The translations under genes and the position numbers were made by a program. The notes under the pieces were generated by a model that searched no databases, was not told the DNA's origin, and saw nothing but the letters and a program-made list of their open reading frames with translations. Positions 1,107-10,925 of a stretch of DNA of 11,099 nt are shown in pieces. Numbering within the stretch: the stretch's first letter is position 1; each line of letters begins with the position of its first letter. The stretch is from an uncultured Bacillota bacterium (GTDB taxonomy: Bacteria > Bacillota_I > Bacilli_A > Erysipelotrichales > Erysipelotrichaceae): contig CAMOMM010000009.1 in assembly GCA_946619805.1 (NCBI GenBank), positions 1 to 11,099 on the forward strand. Reading direction: 5' to 3'.

Positions 1107-4100
1107 ATGGCAAAGAAGTTTATGTCTATGGATGGAAACAATGCTGCCGCTCATAGCGCTTATGCGTTTACAGAAGTAGCTGCGATCTATCCTATTACTC
1201 CAAGTTCAACAATGGCAGAAGTTGTTGACCAGTGGGCAACACAGGGACGTAAAAACATTTTCGGAAGCACTGTAAAGGTTGCAGAAATGCAGTCTGAAGC
1301 AGGCGCAGCCGGTGCCGTACACGGTACATTACAGGCTGGTGCCTTAGCTACTACTTTCACTGCTTCACAGGGATTATTGTTAATGATTCCAAACATCTAT
1401 AAACTTGCAGGCGAATTACTGCCAGGCGTTATTCACGTTGCAGCCAGATCTCTGGCAAGCCGTTCACTGAGTATCTTCGGTGACCATCAGGACGTATATG
1501 CCTGCCGTCAGACCGGTGTCTGCATGCTGGCCAGCAACTCCGTTCAGGAAGCTATGGACCTGGCTGGTGTAGCACACCTGTCAGCCATCAAGGGTTCAGT
1601 TCCGTTCATTCATTTCTTCGATGGTTTCAGAACTTCTCATGAAATCCAGAAAGTCGAAGTCATGGATTATGACTATCTGAAGAGCCTGTTAGACCAGGAT
1701 GCCTTAGCTGCATTCCGTGCCAAGGCCATGAACCCTCATGGAAATCCAATCACCAGAGGCGGTGCTGAAAACGATGACATCACATTCCAGGGCAGAGAAG
1801 CTCAGAACCTGCATTATGCAGCAGTAGCTGACATCGTCAACGATTACATGGCAAAGATCTCTGAACATACGGGAAGAGATTACAAGCCATTCGTTTACTA
1901 TGGCGCACCTGATGCTGAAAGAGTTATCGTAGCCATGGGTTCCGTTAACGAAACAATCGAAGAAGTAGTCGATGCTTTAAACAAGCTGGGCGAAAAGGTC
2001 GGTGTCGTTAAGGTTCACTTATACCGTCCATTCAGTGCCAAGTATTTCCTGAATGTTTTACCTAAGACAGTCAAGAAGATCGCTGTATTAGACAGAACCA
2101 AGGAAATGGGTACCCGCGAACCGTTATATCTGGACGTCATGAACGTAATCAGAGGCTTAGATGTAACATTAATCGGCGGCAGATACGGTATCTCCAGCAA
2201 GAACACTGCTCCTAACCAGATCAAGGCTGTTTATGATGAACTGGCTAAGGAAAATCCAAGAGAAGAATTCACTTTAGGTATCAATGATGACGTAACTCAT
2301 CTGTCACTGGATGTAGATCCAAACTTCACGGTACCTAGTGACTATACTTCATGTCTGTTCTGGGGCTTAGGCTCAGACGGTACAGTAGGTGCCAATAAGA
2401 ACAGCGTTAAGATCATTGGTGACAATACTGATCTGTATGCTCAGGCATATTTCCAGTATGACTCACGTAAGGCCGGCGGCGTTACCAGAAGCCACCTGCG
2501 TTTCGGCCCTACACCAATCCGTTCAACTTACTATGTAACCAACATTGACTTCGTATCATGCTCTCTTGATTCATATGCTCTGAAATATGACATGATCGCT
2601 GAACTGAAGGATGGCGGTACATTCCTGCTGAACACAACACTCGATCCGGAAGAAGTAGTTGAATACATTCCTAACAGAATGAAATATCAGCTGGCTAAGA
2701 AGCATGCCAAGTTCTATATCATCAACGCTACCAAGATCTGTGCTGAAATCGGCATGGGAAGAAGAACAAATACAACATTACAGTCAGCATTCTTCGCTCT
2801 GAACGAACAGATCATGCCTTATGATCAGGCTTTAGGTCTGATGAAGGCAGCTGCCAAGAAGTCATATGGCAGGAAGGGCGACGATGTTGTTGAAATGAAC
2901 TACAAGGCAATTGATGCCGGTAAGGCTGGCCTGGTTCAGGTTGAAGTAAAGCCTGAATGGGCAGAACTGGATCCATTCTTCGAGATCCCTAAGACCGGTG
3001 ATGCCTACATGGACGAATATGTCAACAGAATCGGCAACCTGCAGGGTTATGACATGCCTGTATCAGCCTTCACTAAGTTTGGCGTATTAGACGGTTCAAT
3101 GAACAACAATGCTTCATACAATGAACACCGTAACATTGCAGCATTCGTTCCTAAGTGGAATCCTGAAAACTGTATCCAGTGCGGCTTCTGCTCATTCGTA
3201 TGTCCGCATGCAACAATCAGACAGTTCCTGTTAACTGATGAAGAAATCGCCAATGCTCCACAGCAGTTTGAAACAATCAAGGCTATGGGCAAGGGTGTTG
3301 AAAACCTGAAGTTCAGAATCCAGGTATCTCCTGACAACTGCGTAGGCTGCGGCTTATGTGCTAAGGAATGCCCGGGCAAGGGCGGCAACAAGGCCTTAAC
3401 TATGGTTGATGTTAAGGAACAGTTACCAGAAGCTCCATTAGCTAACTACTTATATCAGGAAACTGAATACAAGAGCCAGTACTTCCCAACAACAACTCCA
3501 AAGGGTGTACAGTTCTTAAAACCTTACTTCGAGGTTCCAGGTTCATGTCCAGGATGCGGTGAAGCTCCTTACTACAGATTAGTTTCACAGCTGTTCGGAC
3601 CTGACATGTTAGTCGCTAACGCAACAGGCTGTTCTTCAATCTATTGCGGATCTACACCTTCTACTCCATTCGTTAAGGATGCTGATGGCAACGGTGTTGC
3701 ATGGGCTAACTCATTATTCGAAGACAATGCAGAATTCGGTTATGGTATGGCTTTAGCAAGAAGCTACAAGAAGGCTTCAATGTTAAAGATCATGGAAGAC
3801 GAATTAGAAAACGTTGAACCTGAATTAAAGGCATTATTCGAAGAATACTTAAAGATCAACGGCAACCGTGCTGAAGAAAAACGTTTACAGCCTCAGCTTG
3901 TTAAGGCCTTAGAAGCCAGCAAGAACGAAAACGTTAAGCCTTTATTAAAGGATTCAAGAGATTTAGTAAGTGCTTCAGTATGGATCGTCGGCGGTGATGG
4001 CTGGTCATATGATATCGGTTACGGTGGATTAGACCACGTCATGGCTAATAACCTGAACGTTAACGTATTAGTATTAGATACAGAAGTTTACTCAAATACA

Positions 4101-4613
4101 GGCGGTCAGTCTTCTAAGTCTTCACAGGCAGCTTCAATCGCTCAGTTCGCTGCTGGCGGTAAGGCAGTTGCTAAGAAGGACTTAGGTCAAATCATCATGA
4201 CTTATGGCCATGTATATGTAGCAAGCGTCTGCATGGGTGCTAACAGACCTCAGGCCATCAAGGCTTTACAGGAAGCTGAAAGCTACAATGGTCCATCTCT
4301 GATCATTGCATACTGCCCATGCGAACTGCACGGTATCAAGGGCGGCTTAAGCAAGCAGCAGCAGGTTCAGAAGGAAGCTGTTGAATGCGGCTATGTTGCA
4401 CTGTATCGTTATGACCCAAGAAAAGAAAAGCCATTACAGATCGACTACACTAAGCCTGATTTCGAAAAGTTCAATGCCTTCTTAATGGATGAAGCCAGAT
4501 ACAATAACCTTGTTAAGGTAAATCCTGAAAAGGCTCAGGCTTTATATGATAAGGCCAGAAGCGATGCTGAAAAGCGTTTCAACAACCTGGTCAAGAAGTT
4601 TGAATCTCAGTAA
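1107..4613 (+). CDS. nifJ: Pyruvate:ferredoxin (flavodoxin) oxidoreductase, single-chain
   Basis: This 1168-residue homodimeric, cytosolic, TPP- and Fe-S-dependent enzyme oxidatively decarboxylates pyruvate with CoA to acetyl-CoA and CO2 and reduces ferredoxin or flavodoxin. Visible elements in order: YPITPSS (28-34, with substrate-site Thr31), Glu64 contacting the TPP pyrimidine, Arg114 of the pyruvate site, an EKR-type segment (about 585-640), a 2x[4Fe-4S] ferredoxin domain (Cys689/692/695/699 and Cys745/748/751/755), the proximal cluster ligands Cys814, Cys817, Cys842 and probably Cys1072, and the TPP/Mg site GDG (963-965) with DTEVYSNTGGQ (991-1001). It lacks the roughly 60-residue C-terminal extension of the Desulfovibrio africanus enzyme, so all catalytic parts are complete. 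I chose the ATG at 1107 (MAKKFMSMDG) because AAAGGGAGG lies 13 bp upstream; an in-frame ATG at 1029 lies inside the upstream terminator and before the promoter. It ends with TAA-TAG. Leucine codon use changes markedly in the last third (see findings). Confidence 0.97.
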   Translation: MAKKFMSMDGNNAAAHSAYAFTEVAAIYPITPSSTMAEVVDQWATQGRKNIFGSTVKVAEMQSEAGAAGAVHGTLQAGALATTFTASQGLLLMIPNIYKLAGELLPGVIHVAARSLASRSLSIFGDHQDVYACRQTGVCMLASNSVQEAMDLAGVAHLSAIKGSVPFIHFFDGFRTSHEIQKVEVMDYDYLKSLLDQDALAAFRAKAMNPHGNPITRGGAENDDITFQGREAQNLHYAAVADIVNDYMAKISEHTGRDYKPFVYYGAPDAERVIVAMGSVNETIEEVVDALNKLGEKVGVVKVHLYRPFSAKYFLNVLPKTVKKIAVLDRTKEMGTREPLYLDVMNVIRGLDVTLIGGRYGISSKNTAPNQIKAVYDELAKENPREEFTLGINDDVTHLSLDVDPNFTVPSDYTSCLFWGLGSDGTVGANKNSVKIIGDNTDLYAQAYFQYDSRKAGGVTRSHLRFGPTPIRSTYYVTNIDFVSCSLDSYALKYDMIAELKDGGTFLLNTTLDPEEVVEYIPNRMKYQLAKKHAKFYIINATKICAEIGMGRRTNTTLQSAFFALNEQIMPYDQALGLMKAAAKKSYGRKGDDVVEMNYKAIDAGKAGLVQVEVKPEWAELDPFFEIPKTGDAYMDEYVNRIGNLQGYDMPVSAFTKFGVLDGSMNNNASYNEHRNIAAFVPKWNPENCIQCGFCSFVCPHATIRQFLLTDEEIANAPQQFETIKAMGKGVENLKFRIQVSPDNCVGCGLCAKECPGKGGNKALTMVDVKEQLPEAPLANYLYQETEYKSQYFPTTTPKGVQFLKPYFEVPGSCPGCGEAPYYRLVSQLFGPDMLVANATGCSSIYCGSTPSTPFVKDADGNGVAWANSLFEDNAEFGYGMALARSYKKASMLKIMEDELENVEPELKALFEEYLKINGNRAEEKRLQPQLVKALEASKNENVKPLLKDSRDLVSASVWIVGGDGWSYDIGYGGLDHVMANNLNVNVLVLDTEVYSNTGGQSSKSSQAASIAQFAAGGKAVAKKDLGQIIMTYGHVYVASVCMGANRPQAIKALQEAESYNGPSLIIAYCPCELHGIKGGLSKQQQVQKEAVECGYVALYRYDPRKEKPLQIDYTKPDFEKFNAFLMDEARYNNLVKVNPEKAQALYDKARSDAEKRFNNLVKKFESQ

Positions 4614-4631: not shown

Positions 4632-4658
4632 AACCGGAAGAGCAATCTTCCGGTTTTT
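4632..4658 (+). terminator. Intrinsic terminator after nifJ
   Basis: A perfect 10-bp stem (AACCGGAAGA with TCTTCCGGTT) closes on a GCAA tetraloop and is followed by a short T run. It begins 18 bp past the nifJ stop and insulates the downstream glycyl radical operon. Confidence 0.9.
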
Positions 4659-4670
4659 CTATGCAACAAG

Positions 4671-4730
4671 TAGATTAAAAATGAATAATATAGAACAAAA
4701 ATGAATAATTATAATTGAAGGAATGAATAA
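4671..4730 (+). repeat. Direct repeats upstream of the GRE operon, candidate operator
   Basis: Two tandem 20-bp units (4671-4690 and 4691-4710) match at 17 of 20 positions and share AAAAATGAATAAT (4677-4689 and 4697-4709). A third copy of the core, ATGAATAA, lies at 4723-4730, between the predicted -35 and -10. Core-to-core spacing is 20 and 22 bp, about two helical turns, so all copies present the same DNA face. DeoR-family regulators commonly bind repeated short sites, and a DeoR gene is third in this operon, so autoregulation is a reasonable inference. AT-rich chance repetition is the main alternative. Confidence 0.5.
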
Positions 4731-4743
4731 ACAGGACTAAAAT
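4715..4743 (+). promoter_or_regulatory. Probable promoter of the GRE operon
   Basis: A -35 TTGAAG (4715-4720) and a -10 TAAAAT (4738-4743) are spaced by exactly 17 bp. The third ATGAATAA repeat lies within the spacer, a position where a bound repressor would block RNA polymerase. A TATAAT at 4710-4715 is also present but has no acceptable -35 at the right distance. Confidence 0.6.
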
Positions 4744-4776
4744 ATAAGTGCAGATACAGGGAAAGGAATGAGGAAC

Positions 4777-7047
4777 ATGATCATATCAAAGGTAGATGGA
4801 GAACAGAACGTCGAAGTATCAGTAAAACTGCCGAGTGAGAAAACACCGCTGCAGCAGCTGGAAATCATGGAGGCCTATACCAGAGCCTATCAGAATTCAC
4901 AGGGACTGGATAAGGCTTTCAGGGAAGTCAACTGTCTGAAGGTCATTTTCCCGACGCTTTTCCGCAGTATCAATGATGAAGACCTGATTGCCGGCAGGCT
5001 GGATTTCCTGCCGATCGGCTTTGGCTCGGTCACCAGTATTGGAGGCGTCGGTCATTACTGTGTCTTCAACAAGCTGAGGGAGTTCAAGGATCAGCTGGAT
5101 AATGAAGAAGATAAAAAAAGAGTGGATGCACTCTACCAATACTGGATGGATAAGGACGTTAAGGCCATCTATTGCCGGGATGTGCTCAATGATACTACAA
5201 CCGGACGTTTCATTGACTGTAAGTATCCATACATGGCTACAGCCCGACTGTCAGGTATGATGCTGGACTATAACAAGCTGCTGAGACTGGGAGTTAGCGG
5301 CATCATTGAACTGCTGCAGTCAAAACCGCAGAATGATTTCATCAGGGCTTCAATTGAAGCCATGAAGCTGTTTAAGACAGTAATAGATCATCAGATAAAG
5401 CTGGTTGATGACAAGCTGGATAAGCTTACTGACCGGCAGAAGATAAAAGATTTCACTTTGATGAAGGAAGATCTGATCTTCATTAAGGAGAATAAGCCGG
5501 AAACCTTCCATCAGGCTTTACAGCTGTTCTGGCTGTATGCCTTATGTGCCGGCTGCATCAACTATGGGCGCATGGATGTGGTATTGGGACCGTATCTGTA
5601 TAATGACATAAAGAAAGGCATCATTGATGAAGATGAGGCATACCGCTATGTGATATCACTGTGGTGGCTGATCGAAAACAGAAGAACGACAGTTAACGGC
5701 CGTATAATTGTCGGCGGTCAGGGCAGGGATAATGTGGAAGCCTGCGACCTCTTTGCCAAAATCTGCTTAAGAGTATGCAGGGATATCAGATATGTGGAAC
5801 CGCAGTTTACCTTCCGCTTTGATAAGACCACTGATCCGGTATTAAAGGACATGGCTTATGAATGCATTGCTTCAGGAGCTACCTACCCGACACTGTATAA
5901 CGACGATGTCAATGTCCCGGCCGTGATGCGAGCCATGAGGGTTGACCGTAAGACCGCTGAGCAGTATGTGCCGTTTGGCTGCGGGGAATTCGTCATTCAG
6001 GGCAAGAGTGTCGGTACTCCGAATACTCTGTTAAATCTGCTGAAGATCATGCAGATATCAATGAATGAGGGTGTTGACCCGATGGATGGCATTTACAAGG
6101 GAGACGGTGTAACACTTAAGCCATTAAGTGAAATAAACTCATTTGAAGAACTGTATGGACAGTATAACCGCCTGCTTGACCACTACATGGACTTGAGTGT
6201 CCGTGATCAGAAGTACAGCTACGAAGTCATGAATAAGGAGGCATCCTTCCTGTTTACCTCCATTCTGATGGATGACTGCATTGAAAGAGGCAGGGCATTG
6301 CTGGATGGTGGTGTTGAGATACTGGGCGGTACCAATGAAACCTATGGCAACATCAACACATCCGATGCCTTCTATGCAATTAAGACCCTGGTTTATGACC
6401 AGAAAAAATACACTTTATCACAGCTTAATGAAGCGTGTCTGAAAGACTATAAGGGTTATGAGAAGATTCAGAAGGATCTGATAAATGTACCGAAATACGG
6501 CAATGATCATCATGACTGTGATGAGATGGCCAACATGATGTACGAATATGTAGCTAAGGGGATCCGCCAGAGAGGAATTGAGGCCGGACTTGGTTATTAC
6601 CTTATTGTAATATCCAATAACCAGACCAATACGGACTGGGGCTTACAGACCGCTGCTTCCCTGGATGGCCGTAACAGCAAAGTCTACATGAACCCGGCCA
6701 ATAACCCACAGGGTGGGGCAGCCAAGTCCGGACCGACTGCCGTACTTAACTCCATCAGCCGATTTGATGCCGGCTATCATGGCGGCAGCGTGCAGAACAT
6801 CAAGTTCACCCCACGCATGATGCATGAAGATAAGGAAAAGGTAAAGGCGCTGTTTAAGACCTACTTTGAAAAGGGCGGCTGTCAGTTAATGGTAACTGTG
6901 GTTGACCATGGTGTACTGGAAGATGCCCAGAAGCATCCGGAGAAATATCCGGATCTGATCGTCAGAGTAGCCGGTTACAGTGCGATCTTCGTTAACTTGT
7001 CAAGAGACATACAGAATGAGCTCTTAAGCAGGACTTTATATGATTAA
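4777..7047 (+). CDS. Glycyl radical enzyme (PFL-like family, probable eliminase/lyase, not pyruvate formate-lyase)
   Basis: This is an oxygen-sensitive radical enzyme of about 756 residues. Residues about 1-615 form the PFL-like barrel and about 635-745 the glycine-radical domain, which ends in RVAGYSA with the predicted radical Gly733. The thiyl cysteine is Cys402 in VPFGCGEF. It is a single Cys, not the adjacent Cys-Cys required by pyruvate formate-lyase, and it keeps the C-x-Glu arrangement (Glu404) of GRE dehydratases and lyases. However, the usual GCVE is GCGE here. A GRMDVVLGPYLYNDI block and a VNGRIIVGGQGRDN block are family-like but do not point me to a known substrate. ATG 4777 is preferred because AAAGGA (4762-4767) sits 9 nt upstream; an in-frame ATG at 4768 would almost touch that site but could use AGGG at 4758. 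The gene overlaps its activase by 8 bp. Automatic labels such as 'formate acetyltransferase' or pflD would be misleading. Eliminases of a diol, polyol or sugar phosphate are the closest known chemistry. Confidence 0.93.
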   Translation: MIISKVDGEQNVEVSVKLPSEKTPLQQLEIMEAYTRAYQNSQGLDKAFREVNCLKVIFPTLFRSINDEDLIAGRLDFLPIGFGSVTSIGGVGHYCVFNKLREFKDQLDNEEDKKRVDALYQYWMDKDVKAIYCRDVLNDTTTGRFIDCKYPYMATARLSGMMLDYNKLLRLGVSGIIELLQSKPQNDFIRASIEAMKLFKTVIDHQIKLVDDKLDKLTDRQKIKDFTLMKEDLIFIKENKPETFHQALQLFWLYALCAGCINYGRMDVVLGPYLYNDIKKGIIDEDEAYRYVISLWWLIENRRTTVNGRIIVGGQGRDNVEACDLFAKICLRVCRDIRYVEPQFTFRFDKTTDPVLKDMAYECIASGATYPTLYNDDVNVPAVMRAMRVDRKTAEQYVPFGCGEFVIQGKSVGTPNTLLNLLKIMQISMNEGVDPMDGIYKGDGVTLKPLSEINSFEELYGQYNRLLDHYMDLSVRDQKYSYEVMNKEASFLFTSILMDDCIERGRALLDGGVEILGGTNETYGNINTSDAFYAIKTLVYDQKKYTLSQLNEACLKDYKGYEKIQKDLINVPKYGNDHHDCDEMANMMYEYVAKGIRQRGIEAGLGYYLIVISNNQTNTDWGLQTAASLDGRNSKVYMNPANNPQGGAAKSGPTAVLNSISRFDAGYHGGSVQNIKFTPRMMHEDKEKVKALFKTYFEKGGCQLMVTVVDHGVLEDAQKHPEKYPDLIVRVAGYSAIFVNLSRDIQNELLSRTLYD

Positions 7048-7930
7048 GGTGTCCAACATTGAACGCTTTGCGACCCATGACGGTCCGGGCATCAGAACAA
7101 CGGTATTTCTGAAAGGCTGTCCGCTGCACTGTCCATGGTGTGCCAATCCGGAAACCTGGAGCGTGAAGCCGGTATTAATGCATGATGAAAGAAAGTGTGT
7201 CAGATGCCACAGCTGTCAGATGACATGTAAAGAAGAAGCCATAAGTTTTGATCCGGTGTTTCACCTGGATGTCAGTAAGTGTACAGTCTGCGGCAGGTGT
7301 GTGGAAGTCTGTCTGCCCGATGCTCTGAGTGTAAATGGCAAGGACATGAGCATTGATGAGATCATTTCCGAAATCAGAAAGGATGATGACTATTACCGTA
7401 ACAGTAACGGTGGGGTGACACTGTCCGGGGGAGAACCGCTGTTTCAGTTTGAACAGAGTCTGAAACTGCTGAAAGAACTTAAGAAAAACGGTTACCATAC
7501 GGCTCTGGAAACCACGGGAATGTATTCTCTGGATAAGCTGAAGAGGGCGGAAGAACATGTTGATCTGTTCCTGTTTGACTTCAAGCATCCTGATCCGGAC
7601 AGATTAAGGGAAGTGACCGGCGGTGATTATGAAACCATTGTCACGAATCTGGAATATCTGCTGGAAAAGTGCCCTGATAAGGTCATCTTACGTACCCCGG
7701 TCATCCGGGATTTCAACAGGGATGAGGTTGAAAAGATAATAAGATGGGCTGCAGAAAGAAAAGTCAGGGAAATAGATCTGCTGCCATATCATTCCCTGGG
7801 CAAAAACAAATGGAATGATCTGGGCAGAGAGTATCCCTATGAAGGGTATCCGCTGATGGATAAAAGTGAGTTAAATGAATATAAGGCTCTGGGTGAAAGC
7901 CTGGGCATAAAGGTTAAGATCGGAGGCTAG
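7040..7930 (+). CDS. Glycyl radical enzyme activating enzyme (radical SAM)
   Basis: This 296-residue activase uses S-adenosylmethionine and a reduced [4Fe-4S] cluster to abstract hydrogen from the radical glycine of the enzyme encoded just upstream. The radical-SAM cluster motif CxxxCxxC is Cys27/Cys31/Cys34 (GCPLHCPWC), preceded by the family signature GPGIRT. A ferredoxin-like insert supplies two more clusters: Cys53/56/59/63 and Cys81/84/87/91. This insert is characteristic of activases for non-PFL GREs, whereas the pyruvate formate-lyase activase lacks it. SGGEP (129-133) is the SAM-binding motif. The start codon lies inside the last codons of the GRE gene (8-bp overlap), with AGGA at 7030-7033 as Shine-Dalgarno site, so translation is probably coupled. 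Electrons likely come from ferredoxin or flavodoxin, which nifJ could reduce. Confidence 0.96.
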   Translation: MIKVSNIERFATHDGPGIRTTVFLKGCPLHCPWCANPETWSVKPVLMHDERKCVRCHSCQMTCKEEAISFDPVFHLDVSKCTVCGRCVEVCLPDALSVNGKDMSIDEIISEIRKDDDYYRNSNGGVTLSGGEPLFQFEQSLKLLKELKKNGYHTALETTGMYSLDKLKRAEEHVDLFLFDFKHPDPDRLREVTGGDYETIVTNLEYLLEKCPDKVILRTPVIRDFNRDEVEKIIRWAAERKVREIDLLPYHSLGKNKWNDLGREYPYEGYPLMDKSELNEYKALGESLGIKVKIGG

Positions 7931-7931
7931 G

Positions 7932-8702
7932 ATGATAACTGAAGAGAGAAAGGTAAGAATAATGGAGCTGATCCGTAAAAACGGATTTGTCTCGGTCAGG
8001 GAATTGATGAAACTGTTTGGGATTTCCCGCAGTTCGATCATGCGTGATCTGAAGGAACTGGACCAGCAGGGTTTCATCTACCGCAAGCACGGTGGCGCTT
8101 CCCTGAAAAATACGTCAGACTTAATGTCCCGGTTTAATGAACCGGCAGTCAGGGAAAAGGAAATGATCAATTCCGAGGCCAAAAGAATGGTATGCCGGAA
8201 GGCAAGTGAACTGGTCACGGACGGAAACAACATCTACATTGATTCCGGTACAACTGTTCTGTGGATGCGGGAATATCTTAAGGATAAGCAGATCAACATC
8301 GTTACTCCCAATGCACTGTTACTGACAAAGATCCCGGAAAACTTTAAAGGAAATATAATTCTGTTAGGCGGAGATTACAGTATTCCGCTGGAATCCGTAT
8401 CCGGAATGATTACCAGCGGGATGCTGGAGAATTACAGCTTTGATTATTCTTTTCTGACGGCCAATGGAACAGATTTTACCAGAGGAGAGGTCTATGGCTA
8501 CAATGTGGCCTATTCCAATAATAAGAAGACAGTACTGCAGAGAAGCAGTAAAGCTGAACTGCTTATCGATTCATCCAAGCTGCAGCTTACCGGTTTCTGC
8601 AAGTGGGCGGATATCCGGGAATTTGATAATATCTTCATTGATGAATATACAGGAGAAAATGCTCCTGACAATCTTGTTATCTGTAAGGGGAAAGAGGTGT
8701 AA
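7932..8702 (+). CDS. DeoR/GlpR-family transcriptional regulator
   Basis: This 256-residue cytosolic DNA-binding protein has the standard two-part layout. Residues about 6-56 form the DeoR-type winged helix-turn-helix (ERKVRIMELIRKNG, then a recognition helix around SRSSIMRDLKEL, ending in the RKHGGA signature). Residues about 80-240 form the sugar-phosphate-sensing domain, including YIDSGTTVLW, LLGGDY, a SFDYSFLTANGTD block and LLIDSSKL. Family members usually repress carbohydrate operons and are released by a phosphorylated sugar intermediate. The start is one base after the activase stop, with GGAGG five bases upstream, and the next gene follows after 5 bp, so it is inside the operon. I infer that it controls this operon through the repeats near 4677-4730. 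The effector is unknown but is probably the substrate or product of the neighbouring epimerase or GRE. Confidence 0.94.
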   Translation: MITEERKVRIMELIRKNGFVSVRELMKLFGISRSSIMRDLKELDQQGFIYRKHGGASLKNTSDLMSRFNEPAVREKEMINSEAKRMVCRKASELVTDGNNIYIDSGTTVLWMREYLKDKQINIVTPNALLLTKIPENFKGNIILLGGDYSIPLESVSGMITSGMLENYSFDYSFLTANGTDFTRGEVYGYNVAYSNNKKTVLQRSSKAELLIDSSKLQLTGFCKWADIREFDNIFIDEYTGENAPDNLVICKGKEV

Positions 8703-8707
8703 TTAAG

Positions 8708-9472
8708 ATGACAGAAAATCCAAAGAAACTTGAATTGCTTGAAAGCATGAAGGGCGGGCTTATCGTATCCTGCCAGACACAGAAAGACGAACCGATCTAC
8801 ACACCGGACATGGTGGTAAAGATGGCTGAATGTGCCAGATGGGCCGGGGCAGTCGGATTAAGACTGAATTCACCTGAACAGATAAGACAGGTAAGGGAAG
8901 CCAATCTGGGCCTGCCTATCATCGGCTTATACAAGGTATGGTATGATGATACCGATGTTTTCATCACTCCTTCCATGAAGGAAGTTGATGCCATTGTGGA
9001 AGCCGGCTGTGACATCATTGCGCTGGACTGCACGGCTCAGATAAATCATGAAGGCAGACAGGCCTGGGACCTGCTGCCGGAAGTAAGGGCCAAGTATCCT
9101 GATCATCTGATCTTTGCGGATATTTCCAACATTGAGGAAGCTGAAAGAGCCGCTGAGAACGGGGCTGACATTGTGGCACCGACTCTGTATGGATATACCA
9201 AGGAAACTGCACATATTGAAGGAGCTGATTTCCGCATGATCGGTGAATTATGCCGCCGTCTGAAAGGAAAGGCCTGTGTCATTCATGAAGGTCATATCTA
9301 CACTCCTGATGAAGCCATGAAGTGCATCTTCTTAGGCTGTCATGCCGTGGTAGTGGGAAGTGCCATTACCCGTCCGCATTACACCGCCAAAAGATTCGTG
9401 GATGCCTTAAGCGGCTACAATGACAACTGGCGAAATGTGGAAAAAGCCAAGCATACCAATGAACTGAAGTAA
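8708..9472 (+). CDS. NanE-like sugar-phosphate 2-epimerase (ManNAc-6-P epimerase family), substrate uncertain
   Basis: This 254-residue TIM-barrel protein matches the N-acetylmannosamine-6-phosphate 2-epimerase family along its whole length, and the known reaction interconverts ManNAc-6-P and GlcNAc-6-P. Preserved landmarks are KGGLIVSCQ (15-23), GLRLN with Arg52, the catalytic lysine Lys76 in GLYKVWYDD, ITPSMKEVD (86-94), Asp138 in FADIS, the catalytic acid Glu194 in HEGHI, and the phosphate-site GSAITRP (217-223). Two signature motifs differ: the usual ALDATxR is ALDCTAQ (105-111), and EGRI is EGHI, losing an arginine. TLSGYT reads TLYGYT. No lyase, kinase, deacetylase or transporter of sialic-acid catabolism is in the window. 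It is the last gene of the GRE operon, 5 bp after the regulator, with GAGG at 8694-8697. It may act on ManNAc-6-P or on a related phosphorylated sugar that feeds the GRE; the context favours the latter, but this is inference. Confidence 0.88.
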   Translation: MTENPKKLELLESMKGGLIVSCQTQKDEPIYTPDMVVKMAECARWAGAVGLRLNSPEQIRQVREANLGLPIIGLYKVWYDDTDVFITPSMKEVDAIVEAGCDIIALDCTAQINHEGRQAWDLLPEVRAKYPDHLIFADISNIEEAERAAENGADIVAPTLYGYTKETAHIEGADFRMIGELCRRLKGKACVIHEGHIYTPDEAMKCIFLGCHAVVVGSAITRPHYTAKRFVDALSGYNDNWRNVEKAKHTNELK

Positions 9473-9492
9473 AGCGGAGGGATCCGCTTTTT
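9471..9492 (+). terminator. Intrinsic terminator of the GRE operon
   Basis: An 8-bp perfect stem (AAAGCGGA with TCCGCTTT, loop GGGA) followed by T residues begins within the stop codon of the epimerase gene. It marks the end of the four-gene transcript. Confidence 0.85.
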
Positions 9493-9557: not shown

Positions 9558-10925
9558 ATGGATGAAACCAAGACTATAGGAAAAGACTACTCTTTACTTC
9601 AGCTGGCTAAGTTTGCCCTGCCGGCAGTGTTAAATGAACTGATCATCAATCTGCTTTATACCATTGATGACGGTCTTTTCATTTCGCGCTATATTGGTTC
9701 CAATGCCATGGCAGCCTTTTCCGTGCTGTTTCCGTTATTCATGATCCATAACAGTCCGGCCATCCTTTTAGGAGGAGTTTCAACTCTGGCCTCCCGTAAG
9801 ATGGGCGAAGGAAAGAGCCAGGAAGCCAGGGCTGACTTTACAGCCATGGTGCTGTTTGTCGGGATGATTGGCATCCTTCTTGGGGTTATGGAAAGGGTCT
9901 TCATGGATCCGATCCTTAAACTGCTGGGAGCCACGGATATCATCTATCCCTATGCCCGTGACTTTGTCAGGGTAGGAGCCTTATATCTGCCATTGACATT
10001 GGTATCAACGATTTTCAGACGTTTCTATGTACCGGCCGGCAAACCGAAGATGGAATTACTGTCAACAGTTTTAAATGTCAGTGCCAATCTCTTTTTTGAC
10101 TGGTATTTTGTGGTATATAAAAGAGTCGGCATGGTCGGAACAGCCTATGCCAATCTGCTGGCTACTGTGTTAATGACGGTTATCGGTCTGCTGTTTTATT
10201 CCGGCAGAAAGTGTGAGATACAGTTTACCTCACCTACGAAAGATCTGCTGCCATTGATAAAAGAGTCCAGCAAGTATGGCATATCGTCTTTTCTTTCCAA
10301 TCTGTCAGTAGGCTTAAGTTCACTGGTATCCAACTATGCCATTTTATACTGGGGCTCGGAAGAATATCTGGCAGCCTATACCATTGTAGGGAACATTCAG
10401 TGGGCTTTCATGGGGTGTTTCTTCGGCCTGTTTGATACCTCGGGTCCGATTATTTCCTACGCAGTAGGCGAACGCAATGTCGAAAAACTAAAGAAGACCT
10501 TTGGACAAGTCGTCATTCTGACAACGGTGCTGTCTTTGACATTAATGATCAGCTTCCTGTTATTTGGCTGGCTGGTTGCCGGTCTCTACATATCGGAAGG
10601 AGCCAGAGACTACAAGGATCTGATCGATTTCGGTATGAAGATCGCACCTTACAGTTTCTTAATGTTCGGCTATAATCTGGGAGCCAGAATTACCTTTGCT
10701 TCCCTGGGAAATCACAGGACGTCAGCTGTTCTGACCTTCTTGCAGGAAGTAGTGCTGGCGAATGTGACAGTGGTGGCTTTACCGTTAATATTCGGCATAA
10801 AGGGAGTGTGGTTCTCCTTCCTGCTGACCAACATATTAATGCTGTTTTTCTCCCGGGGTGCCGTTTACCTCAACCGTGATAACTACGGATACGGGAAATC
10901 CGGTGAAGCTCTGTTAATACAATAA
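9558..10925 (+). CDS. MATE-family multidrug efflux transporter
   Basis: This 455-residue integral membrane protein of about 12 hydrophobic segments arranges as two MatE halves (about 15-175 and 235-395). It is predicted to export cationic drugs or metabolites using a Na+ or H+ gradient. The first half begins with the typical LNELIINLLYTIDDGLFISRYIG block, followed by GVSTLASRKMGEGK, which corresponds to the conserved G-x-x-(S/T)-x-x-(S/A) and loop residues of the family. The helix 7 region carries a charged FDTSGPIISYAVGERN segment. The overall style is closest to the MepA-like branch, a judgement by eye. An in-frame TGA lies at 9549-9551, so the ATG at 9558 is the first possible start. It lacks a recognisable Shine-Dalgarno site, which is unlike its neighbours. 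A terminator upstream and its own promoter show it is separate from the GRE operon; export of a product of that pathway is possible but unsupported. Confidence 0.93.
   Translation: MDETKTIGKDYSLLQLAKFALPAVLNELIINLLYTIDDGLFISRYIGSNAMAAFSVLFPLFMIHNSPAILLGGVSTLASRKMGEGKSQEARADFTAMVLFVGMIGILLGVMERVFMDPILKLLGATDIIYPYARDFVRVGALYLPLTLVSTIFRRFYVPAGKPKMELLSTVLNVSANLFFDWYFVVYKRVGMVGTAYANLLATVLMTVIGLLFYSGRKCEIQFTSPTKDLLPLIKESSKYGISSFLSNLSVGLSSLVSNYAILYWGSEEYLAAYTIVGNIQWAFMGCFFGLFDTSGPIISYAVGERNVEKLKKTFGQVVILTTVLSLTLMISFLLFGWLVAGLYISEGARDYKDLIDFGMKIAPYSFLMFGYNLGARITFASLGNHRTSAVLTFLQEVVLANVTVVALPLIFGIKGVWFSFLLTNILMLFFSRGAVYLNRDNYGYGKSGEALLIQ

Follow-up and report, generated by a model that had tools for sequence, protein, structure and literature searches.

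A glycyl radical enzyme kept beside a NanE-like epimerase points to an undescribed route for the breakdown of a phosphorylated sugar

The two glycyl radical enzymes (GREs) YbiW and PflD of Escherichia coli are reportedly, following work by Ma and colleagues in 2024, lyases of 1,5-anhydroglucitol-6-phosphate and 1,5-anhydromannitol-6-phosphate. PMC12441222, citing this work, describes that they open anhydrosugar phosphates, and PMC11574389 states that many GREs of gut bacteria are without known function. For NanE, the N-acetylmannosamine-6-phosphate (ManNAc-6-P) 2-epimerase described from Staphylococcus aureus and Clostridium perfringens, six catalytic residues (Gln11, Arg40, Lys63, Asp124, Glu180, and Arg208 in S. 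aureus numbering) are named in PMC8482478. Here, we analyze a stretch of 11,099 nucleotides from contig CAMOMM010000009.1 of an uncultured Bacillota bacterium (hereafter “the window”; the source genome is incomplete, i.e., 68% complete) in which an oxygen-sensitive GRE of an uncharacterized family and a NanE-like epimerase are part of the same four-gene operon of this gut-type anaerobe. The comparison of this operon with its relatives points to an undescribed route for the breakdown of a phosphorylated sugar.

All four genes are encoded on the forward strand. The GRE itself (4777..7047; identified by Pfam, NCBIfam, and homologue alignment) is followed by a radical-SAM glycyl-radical-enzyme activase with a ferredoxin-type (4Fe-4S) region (7040..7930; TIGR02494 at 333.3 bits with a cut-off of 174.35), a DeoR-family transcriptional regulator (7932..8702; HTH_DeoR at 53 bits and DeoRC at 105 bits, with AgaR as the top NCBIfam model at 121.2 bits and thus under its cut-off of 260), and the NanE-like epimerase of a GRE-linked branch that we call NanE-II (8708..9472; Pfam NanE at 170.2 bits with a cut-off of 27). 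A first-pass annotation of this DNA had already recognized the operon and its four gene identities, and open reading frames (ORFs), Pfam, and NCBIfam bear out both of them as well as the overlap of 8 bases between GRE and activase genes and the gaps of 1 base (activase to DeoR) and 5 bases (DeoR to NanE) that it had described. Its choice of 4777 as the start of the GRE also holds because the homologues align from this internal ATG, while the ORF opens at 4768, the start given by the ORF caller.

The window GRE scores 388.8 bits for the PFL-like and 95.1 bits for the Gly_radical domain and retains a Cys405-x-Glu407 motif as well as Gly736 in an RVAGYSA loop (numbering from 4768), three residues that are conserved in all 92 GREs that we aligned. 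It thus has the C-terminal glycyl radical loop, the catalytic cysteine, and the adjoining radical-SAM activase that mark the class. With YbiW and PflD it shares the GRE fold, the Cys-x-Glu motif, a dedicated activase, members accompanied by phosphotransferase system (PTS) genes, and a phosphorylated sugar as the likely substrate. However, it is 24-26% identical to either of them (YbiW and PflD are 39% identical to each other), and its match to the NCBIfam model PFL2-3 (320.8 bits) stays under the cut-off of 678.2. The clade of GREs around it is usually accompanied by NanE-II rather than by an FSA aldolase and differs in 34 polar positions, near-invariant in the clade and missing from 5/5 sequences of the YbiW/PflD kind, and in two segments near the active site that are shorter than in that kind. 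Judged by these sequence features, the window GRE is a distinct family outside the YbiW/PflD group, so that of the comparison with these enzymes drawn in the first-pass annotation the likely substrate class stands but family membership does not. Where the glycerol dehydratase has His164, His281, Ser282, and Asp447, which we take to be its glycerol-binding residues, the window GRE shows no like residues at the places aligned by eye. Its identity to the glycerol and 1,2-propanediol dehydratases (1R8W, 5I2A) is about 26%. Among the groups compared, it joins none that is characterized, in keeping with the first-pass annotation, whose reading had turned on the GRE not clustering with such a group. 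Relatives are found in Parabacteroides distasonis, Thomasclavelia, Holdemanella, Faecalitalea, and other gut anaerobes. The window’s own genome encodes a second GRE with activase on contig C18 (L122) that is of the YbiW/PflD kind (38% identical to YbiW, 26% to the window GRE), and no FSA gene was seen on this 9.7-kb contig.

Our comparison of gene neighborhoods by tblastn covered 81 loci, i.e., the window and the best 80 of 105 relatives from a scan of genome contigs, which span Erysipelotrichales, Lachnospiraceae, other Clostridia, Bacteroidales, Coriobacteriia, and Treponema. A NanE gene is encoded within 3 kb of the clade GRE in 63 of these 81 loci (on the same strand in 61) and within 10 kb in 65. 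Some of the misses are due to contig ends; among loci flanked on each side by 3 kb or more the count is 47 of 56, and among those flanked by about 10 kb it is 32 of 37. The other neighbors within 3 kb include the activase (78/81) and regulators of the DeoR (38/81) or AraC (26/81) type. None of 20 hand-picked control GREs from related genomes (three of them with under 3 kb on one side) has a NanE in the fetched stretch and 13 have FSA instead, which is found near clade GREs in 0/81 loci within 3 kb and in 1/81 within 10 kb. The neighborhood analysis that the first-pass annotation had proposed therefore came out in favor of its idea, with GRE homologues usually adjoining the epimerase.

The pairing extends to the level of genomes. 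Sixteen loci have no NanE within 10 kb, and 10 of the 15 genomes tested for these hold a NanE of the GRE-linked type elsewhere (58-82% identity). With cut-offs that were set after viewing the lists (GRE at E<=1e-150 for 98 genomes and E<=1e-120 for 395 class genomes; NanE at about 205 bits or, in G011, two split pieces) and with relatives and class samples that overlap, the 98 genomes, including the window’s own, comprise 18 with both genes, two with just the GRE (G067 and G021, the latter 68% complete), two with the NanE only (G031 and G040), and 76 with neither (Fisher p 1.7e-15, uncorrected for ancestry), compared to 8, 2, 3, and 382 among the class genomes. The distances among GREs and among their NanEs are correlated as well (Mantel r 0.70 over 57 pairs, reached by 0/1000 permutations).

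The epimerase of the window carries the NCBIfam label of a putative ManNAc-6-P 2-epimerase (250.9 bits with a cut-off of 189) and belongs to the same family as NanE of S. aureus and C. perfringens, with all six catalytic residues common to both (Q23, R52, K76, D138, E194, and R222 in the window protein). Phe72 and Tyr149 of NanE are also kept by a count of residue spacing. We compared 104 distinct sequences (71 GRE-linked and 33 other) in which the catalytic residues were placed by motif and spacing, the S. aureus sequence itself not being part of the alignment. The GRE-linked proteins retain Q11, R40, and K63 in all 69 members covering them and D124, E180, and R208 in 71/71. However, the basic residue that follows the catalytic lysine in NanE of S. 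aureus and C. perfringens is replaced by valine in the window protein and by isoleucine or valine in 66/69 linked members. Most of these additionally have Tyr or Trp before this lysine, Trp and then His after the Ile/Val position, Pro and Tyr preceding the tyrosine that contacts the acetamide group in S. aureus NanE, Met before the catalytic glutamate, and His after the next glycine. The window protein deviates from this signature with Tyr79 for His and His193 for Met.

In a phylogenetic tree, 73 of the 75 NanEs that are GRE-linked or bear the signature fall into one branch with 0/29 other NanEs inside (support 0.68); L116_13175 and L039_20080 lie outside it, the latter being an ordinary NanE encoded next to a GRE of the PflD type. 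All unlinked NanEs with the signature (in L175, L183, L184, and L189) are from genomes that encode a clade GRE (G001, G020, G015, and G027), and 12 of the 18 genomes with both GRE and NanE-II hold a further NanE of at most 44% identity to NanE-II. Because the catalytic residues are retained and adjacent residues altered in a separate branch, NanE-II has probably kept the chemistry of NanE with a changed pocket. Two genomes without a clade GRE encode a NanE relative of 48-50% identity clustered with Man-type PTS genes (L191 in G031 and L240 in G040). In L240, this cluster further holds a DUF3604 gene and, adjoining the NanE relative, a sulfatase gene whose product has a C-terminal domain of the N-sulphoglucosamine sulphohydrolase type; similar-looking genes are seen by eye in L191.

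Neighborhood, co-occurrence in genomes, and the epimerase branch support that GRE and NanE-II are coupled and that their pairing is not incidental, and this pairing is kept across several bacterial phyla. We found no account of it in the one open-access library searched, nor by text search within PMC8950772, PMC11528403, PMC12507026, and PMC10266427, though unnamed clusters of Levin 2017 and Ma 2024 could include the family. At two loci, L113 (G001:C94:60000-79990) and L114 (G007:C69), four clade GREs are encoded in tandem. Upstream of the tandem, L113 has two NanE genes and one activase gene, the G007 counterparts of which are on contig C26 (L192). All four GREs of L113 retain the Cys-x-Glu motif and glycyl loop, while one G007 copy has an in-frame stop; such tandems suggest several related substrates.

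What else accompanies the pair varies by lineage, but sugar phosphates are a common theme in part of the loci. As the first-pass annotation had remarked, the window operon encodes no kinase, aldolase, or transporter; among the relatives, some encode DeoC, a ROK kinase, or a PTS of the Man or Fru type nearby. A ROK kinase gene within 3 kb of the clade GRE is present in 26/81 loci and often stands directly before NanE and GRE in Clostridia and Bacteroidales, e.g., in the order ROK, NanE, GRE, activase in P. distasonis; the one ROK protein scanned (L102) has a ROK glucokinase as best model with 256.9 bits, slightly under the cut-off of 260.35. Genes of a Man-type PTS, an assignment that rests on the EIID of L239 and on similarity, occur in 4/81 loci and in 5/12 wider loci, and PMI-like genes in 5/81 and 3/12; the wider Erysipelotrichia clade has Man-type PTS genes together with PMI-like and cupin isomerases. 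DeoC (deoxyribose-phosphate aldolase by NCBIfam) is encoded within 10 kb in 6/81 loci and in 3/12 wider loci, and in L081, L089, and L098 it adjoins the activase on the opposite strand. The most telling case is the genome G067, in which no NanE was found and which has a GntR gene and genes for a Fru-type EIIA and EIIBC directly before GRE and activase, with a spacing of 34 bases between EIIBC and GRE. If the PTS product is the GRE substrate in this one genome, NanE would be a feeder that is dispensable when the right epimer is imported. Other contigs of the window’s own genome encode a ROK protein, DeoC, and TAL/FSA-family proteins, which could provide the kinase and aldolase in trans.

On balance, we therefore view the operon as a two-enzyme module for a phosphorylated hexose in which a dedicated C2-epimerase supplies one hexose-6-phosphate epimer to a radical eliminase. 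The sugar would enter as, or become, a 6-phosphate by the action of a PTS or ROK kinase whose genes are not part of the window, and NanE-II would invert C2, with Lys76 removing the C2 proton of the open-chain aldose and Glu194 together with the substrate returning one. After installation of the radical on Gly736 of the GRE by the activase, the Cys405 thiyl radical would abstract a hydrogen from a CH-OH group of the 2-epimer, and a neighboring C-O or C-N bond would be eliminated with Glu407 acting as the base; which group leaves is a guess. This would yield a deoxy-carbonyl sugar phosphate for an aldolase, in some relatives probably of the DeoC type, and the DeoR protein would repress the operon at upstream repeats until released by a sugar phosphate. 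An aldohexose-6-phosphate, C2 inversion, and radical elimination are proposed because of the kept residues and the conserved company, while the placement of the epimerase first follows mainly from G067 and from the aldehyde required by NanE chemistry. Family membership, catalytic residues, conserved pairing, epimerase branch, partial sugar-phosphate company, and operator-like repeats can be read from the sequences; the order of steps, substrate class, bond broken, and effector we infer. Of the epimerization coupled to radical cleavage that the first-pass annotation had suggested, it is accordingly the coupling of the genes and the sugar-phosphate company that stand, with step order, sugar, and bond belonging to the proposal.

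Because the chemistry of its dedicated epimerase is known, the candidate substrates of the GRE are limited to aldose phosphates whose C2 proton is acidic, and a small set of compounds assayed with the two purified proteins could address the question. A second phosphosugar GRE family, if true, would make radical sugar catabolism broader than anhydroglycolysis. More specifically, though we would not bet on it, the GRE might strip a hexose-6-phosphate of its C2 substituent (a hydroxyl, amine, or acylamine group), with NanE-II orienting C2 and a DeoC-type aldolase cutting the 2-deoxy product. This would fit the epimerase, a DERA-type aldolase, and NagB-like neighbors but is weakened by the minority of loci that have DeoC or NagB; if true, it would turn sugars or amino sugars into deoxy sugars by radical chemistry, a route distinct from both anhydroglycolysis and NagA/NagB.

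Several points weigh against the module as proposed. No activity is known for any member of the GRE clade, the support of the NanE-II branch is moderate, and its altered residues mean that the substrate of NanE-II cannot be read from ManNAc-6-P. Shared ancestry inflates both the co-occurrence and the Mantel figures, and the 205-bit boundary for NanE is not clean; a second NanE of G015 (L116), outside the branch, also exceeds it. Among the 15 genomes without a nearby NanE that were tested, four hold only a NanE of about 40% identity and one holds none, and no NanE was found in the genome of G067 despite its clade GRE. Beyond the controls, three YbiW/PflD-type GREs have a NanE within about 1-5 kb (L182, L183, and L184, loci that were chosen for their NanE). 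Furthermore, none of the ROK, PTS, DeoC, and PMI genes reaches a majority of loci, so that no single route of supply or cleavage is conserved, and NanE-II could act after the GRE.

In this last case, the GRE would make a deoxy-carbonyl sugar phosphate and NanE-II would invert the carbon beside the new carbonyl for aldolase cleavage. Such an order, to which we give a small chance, could explain why NanE-II takes the place of the FSA aldolase seen beside YbiW/PflD-type GREs (13/20 controls compared to 0/81 clade loci within 3 kb) and why NanEs of the GRE-linked type away from a clade GRE are encoded with DeoC and isomerase genes (G020, G586) or near HxlA/HxlB (G041). However, the kept catalytic set of NanE would rather fit an aldose-6-phosphate, which is what a PTS or kinase supplies, and the GRE of G067 with its PTS but without NanE is a better fit to an upstream, dispensable epimerase.

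It is also improbable that the GRE is another 1,5-anhydrohexitol-6-phosphate lyase like YbiW and PflD with 1-deoxyfructose-6-phosphate as product. The general likeness to these enzymes would suit this idea, but the identity of 24-26%, the 34 clade polar positions missing there, the shorter active-site segments, and the lack of FSA within 3 kb in all 81 loci speak against it, as do the separate GRE of that very kind on contig C18 of the same genome and the fact that an anhydrohexitol offers no aldehyde for NanE chemistry. Plain salvage of N-acetylmannosamine (sialic acid), with NanE-II as an ordinary NanE and the adjoining GRE as incidental, would agree with the NCBIfam name, which matches above its cut-off, and with the intact catalytic residues. 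We nevertheless regard it as very improbable given that NanE-II is a separate GRE-tied branch and that another NanE is carried by 12/18 genomes with both genes. Unlike in the sialic-acid setting of NanE, no sialic-acid lyase is encoded alongside in 80/81 loci, and the NanA-like gene in the remaining one is 29% identical and over 7 kb away from the GRE.

Directly upstream of the operon, the window contains three direct repeats AATGAATAA(T/A) on the forward strand (4680..4731, starting at 4680, 4700, and 4722) that are about two helical turns apart and are candidate DeoR operator sites. The signal of the window alone is weak, with 313/5000 shuffles attaining three copies of an 8-mer. The related motif TGAA[CT][ACG]AA has 44 matches in 27 upstream regions including that of the window (shuffled mean 7.3; highest of 500 shuffles 17), an enrichment that is flattering because the motif was chosen after viewing the sequences. 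It is missing from 8/27 of these regions, and its strict form matches once in the window where the other two copies differ at the last base. These repeats suggest control sites for the DeoR protein of the operon as the natural candidate binder.

Further companions were considered as hints to the substrate. NagB-like genes are found within 3 kb in 2/81 loci and also adjoin an orphan NanE-II in L224 and L227, and NagA scores above its cut-off in L116; an amino-sugar reading based on these genes is suggestive, but the occurrences are too sparse to adopt it. Sets of corrinoid methyltransferase genes are present in L061 (1/81) and in L117 and L118 of the 12 wider loci, as well as near NanEs of the GRE-linked type in L184 and L241, with a corrinoid-protein match in L043. 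A methylated-sugar reading was not adopted because these sets partly accompany YbiW-type GREs and DeoC. The respective genes near GREs in L117, L184, and L241 (G041, G015), L118 (G013), and L061 encode a corrinoid protein, an MtaA/CmuA-like methyltransferase, and corrinoid-activation-like proteins. HxlA and HxlB (hexulose-phosphate synthase/isomerase) are encoded near the GRE-type NanE of L184 and L241, and L117 and L184 have a YbiW-type GRE with DeoC. Altogether, these neighborhoods look like one-carbon chemistry tied to radical sugar catabolism. In L117, L140, and L184, DeoC directly adjoins YbiW-type GREs in the position held by FSA elsewhere.

In Bacteroidales, a DUF1080 protein and a BT_2158-like dehydrogenase are each encoded within 10 kb in 10/81 loci and might point to a link with 3-keto-glucosides, though in part these genes form a unit of their own that follows a divergently oriented AraC gene. 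A plasmid of Persicobacter psychrovividus (L124) encodes a GRE relative of 39% identity with an activase, adjoining genes for AraC and a phytanoyl-CoA dioxygenase family protein and with GH20, sulfatase, DeoC, and ribokinase genes within about 16 kb. Finally, a GH94-like protein of about 750 amino acids is part of the GRE clusters of L102 (two copies), L071, L095, L097, and others; it is encoded within 3 kb in 13/81 loci, matches the profile of cellobiose phosphorylase, a distant relative, at 1.4e-12, and may be an unrecognized phosphorylase family.

Of the single promoter and single terminator that the first-pass annotation had assigned to the operon, the promoter is poorly supported (25 promoter-like matches in the window compared to 20.7 in shuffles), but there are hairpins at both limits. 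Upstream, a terminator-like hairpin (4632..4655, forward strand) follows the pyruvate:ferredoxin oxidoreductase gene (1107-4613; 1620.7 bits with a cut-off of 911.35), which is itself preceded by a gene for a rhomboid-family protein (409-993). The likely downstream limit is a hairpin AAGCGGA-GGGA-TCCGCTT (9472-9489) with a short T run (9472..9492, forward strand), seen by eye and absent from the terminator scan, and beyond it the operon is flanked by the gene of a MatE-family transporter (9558-10925).

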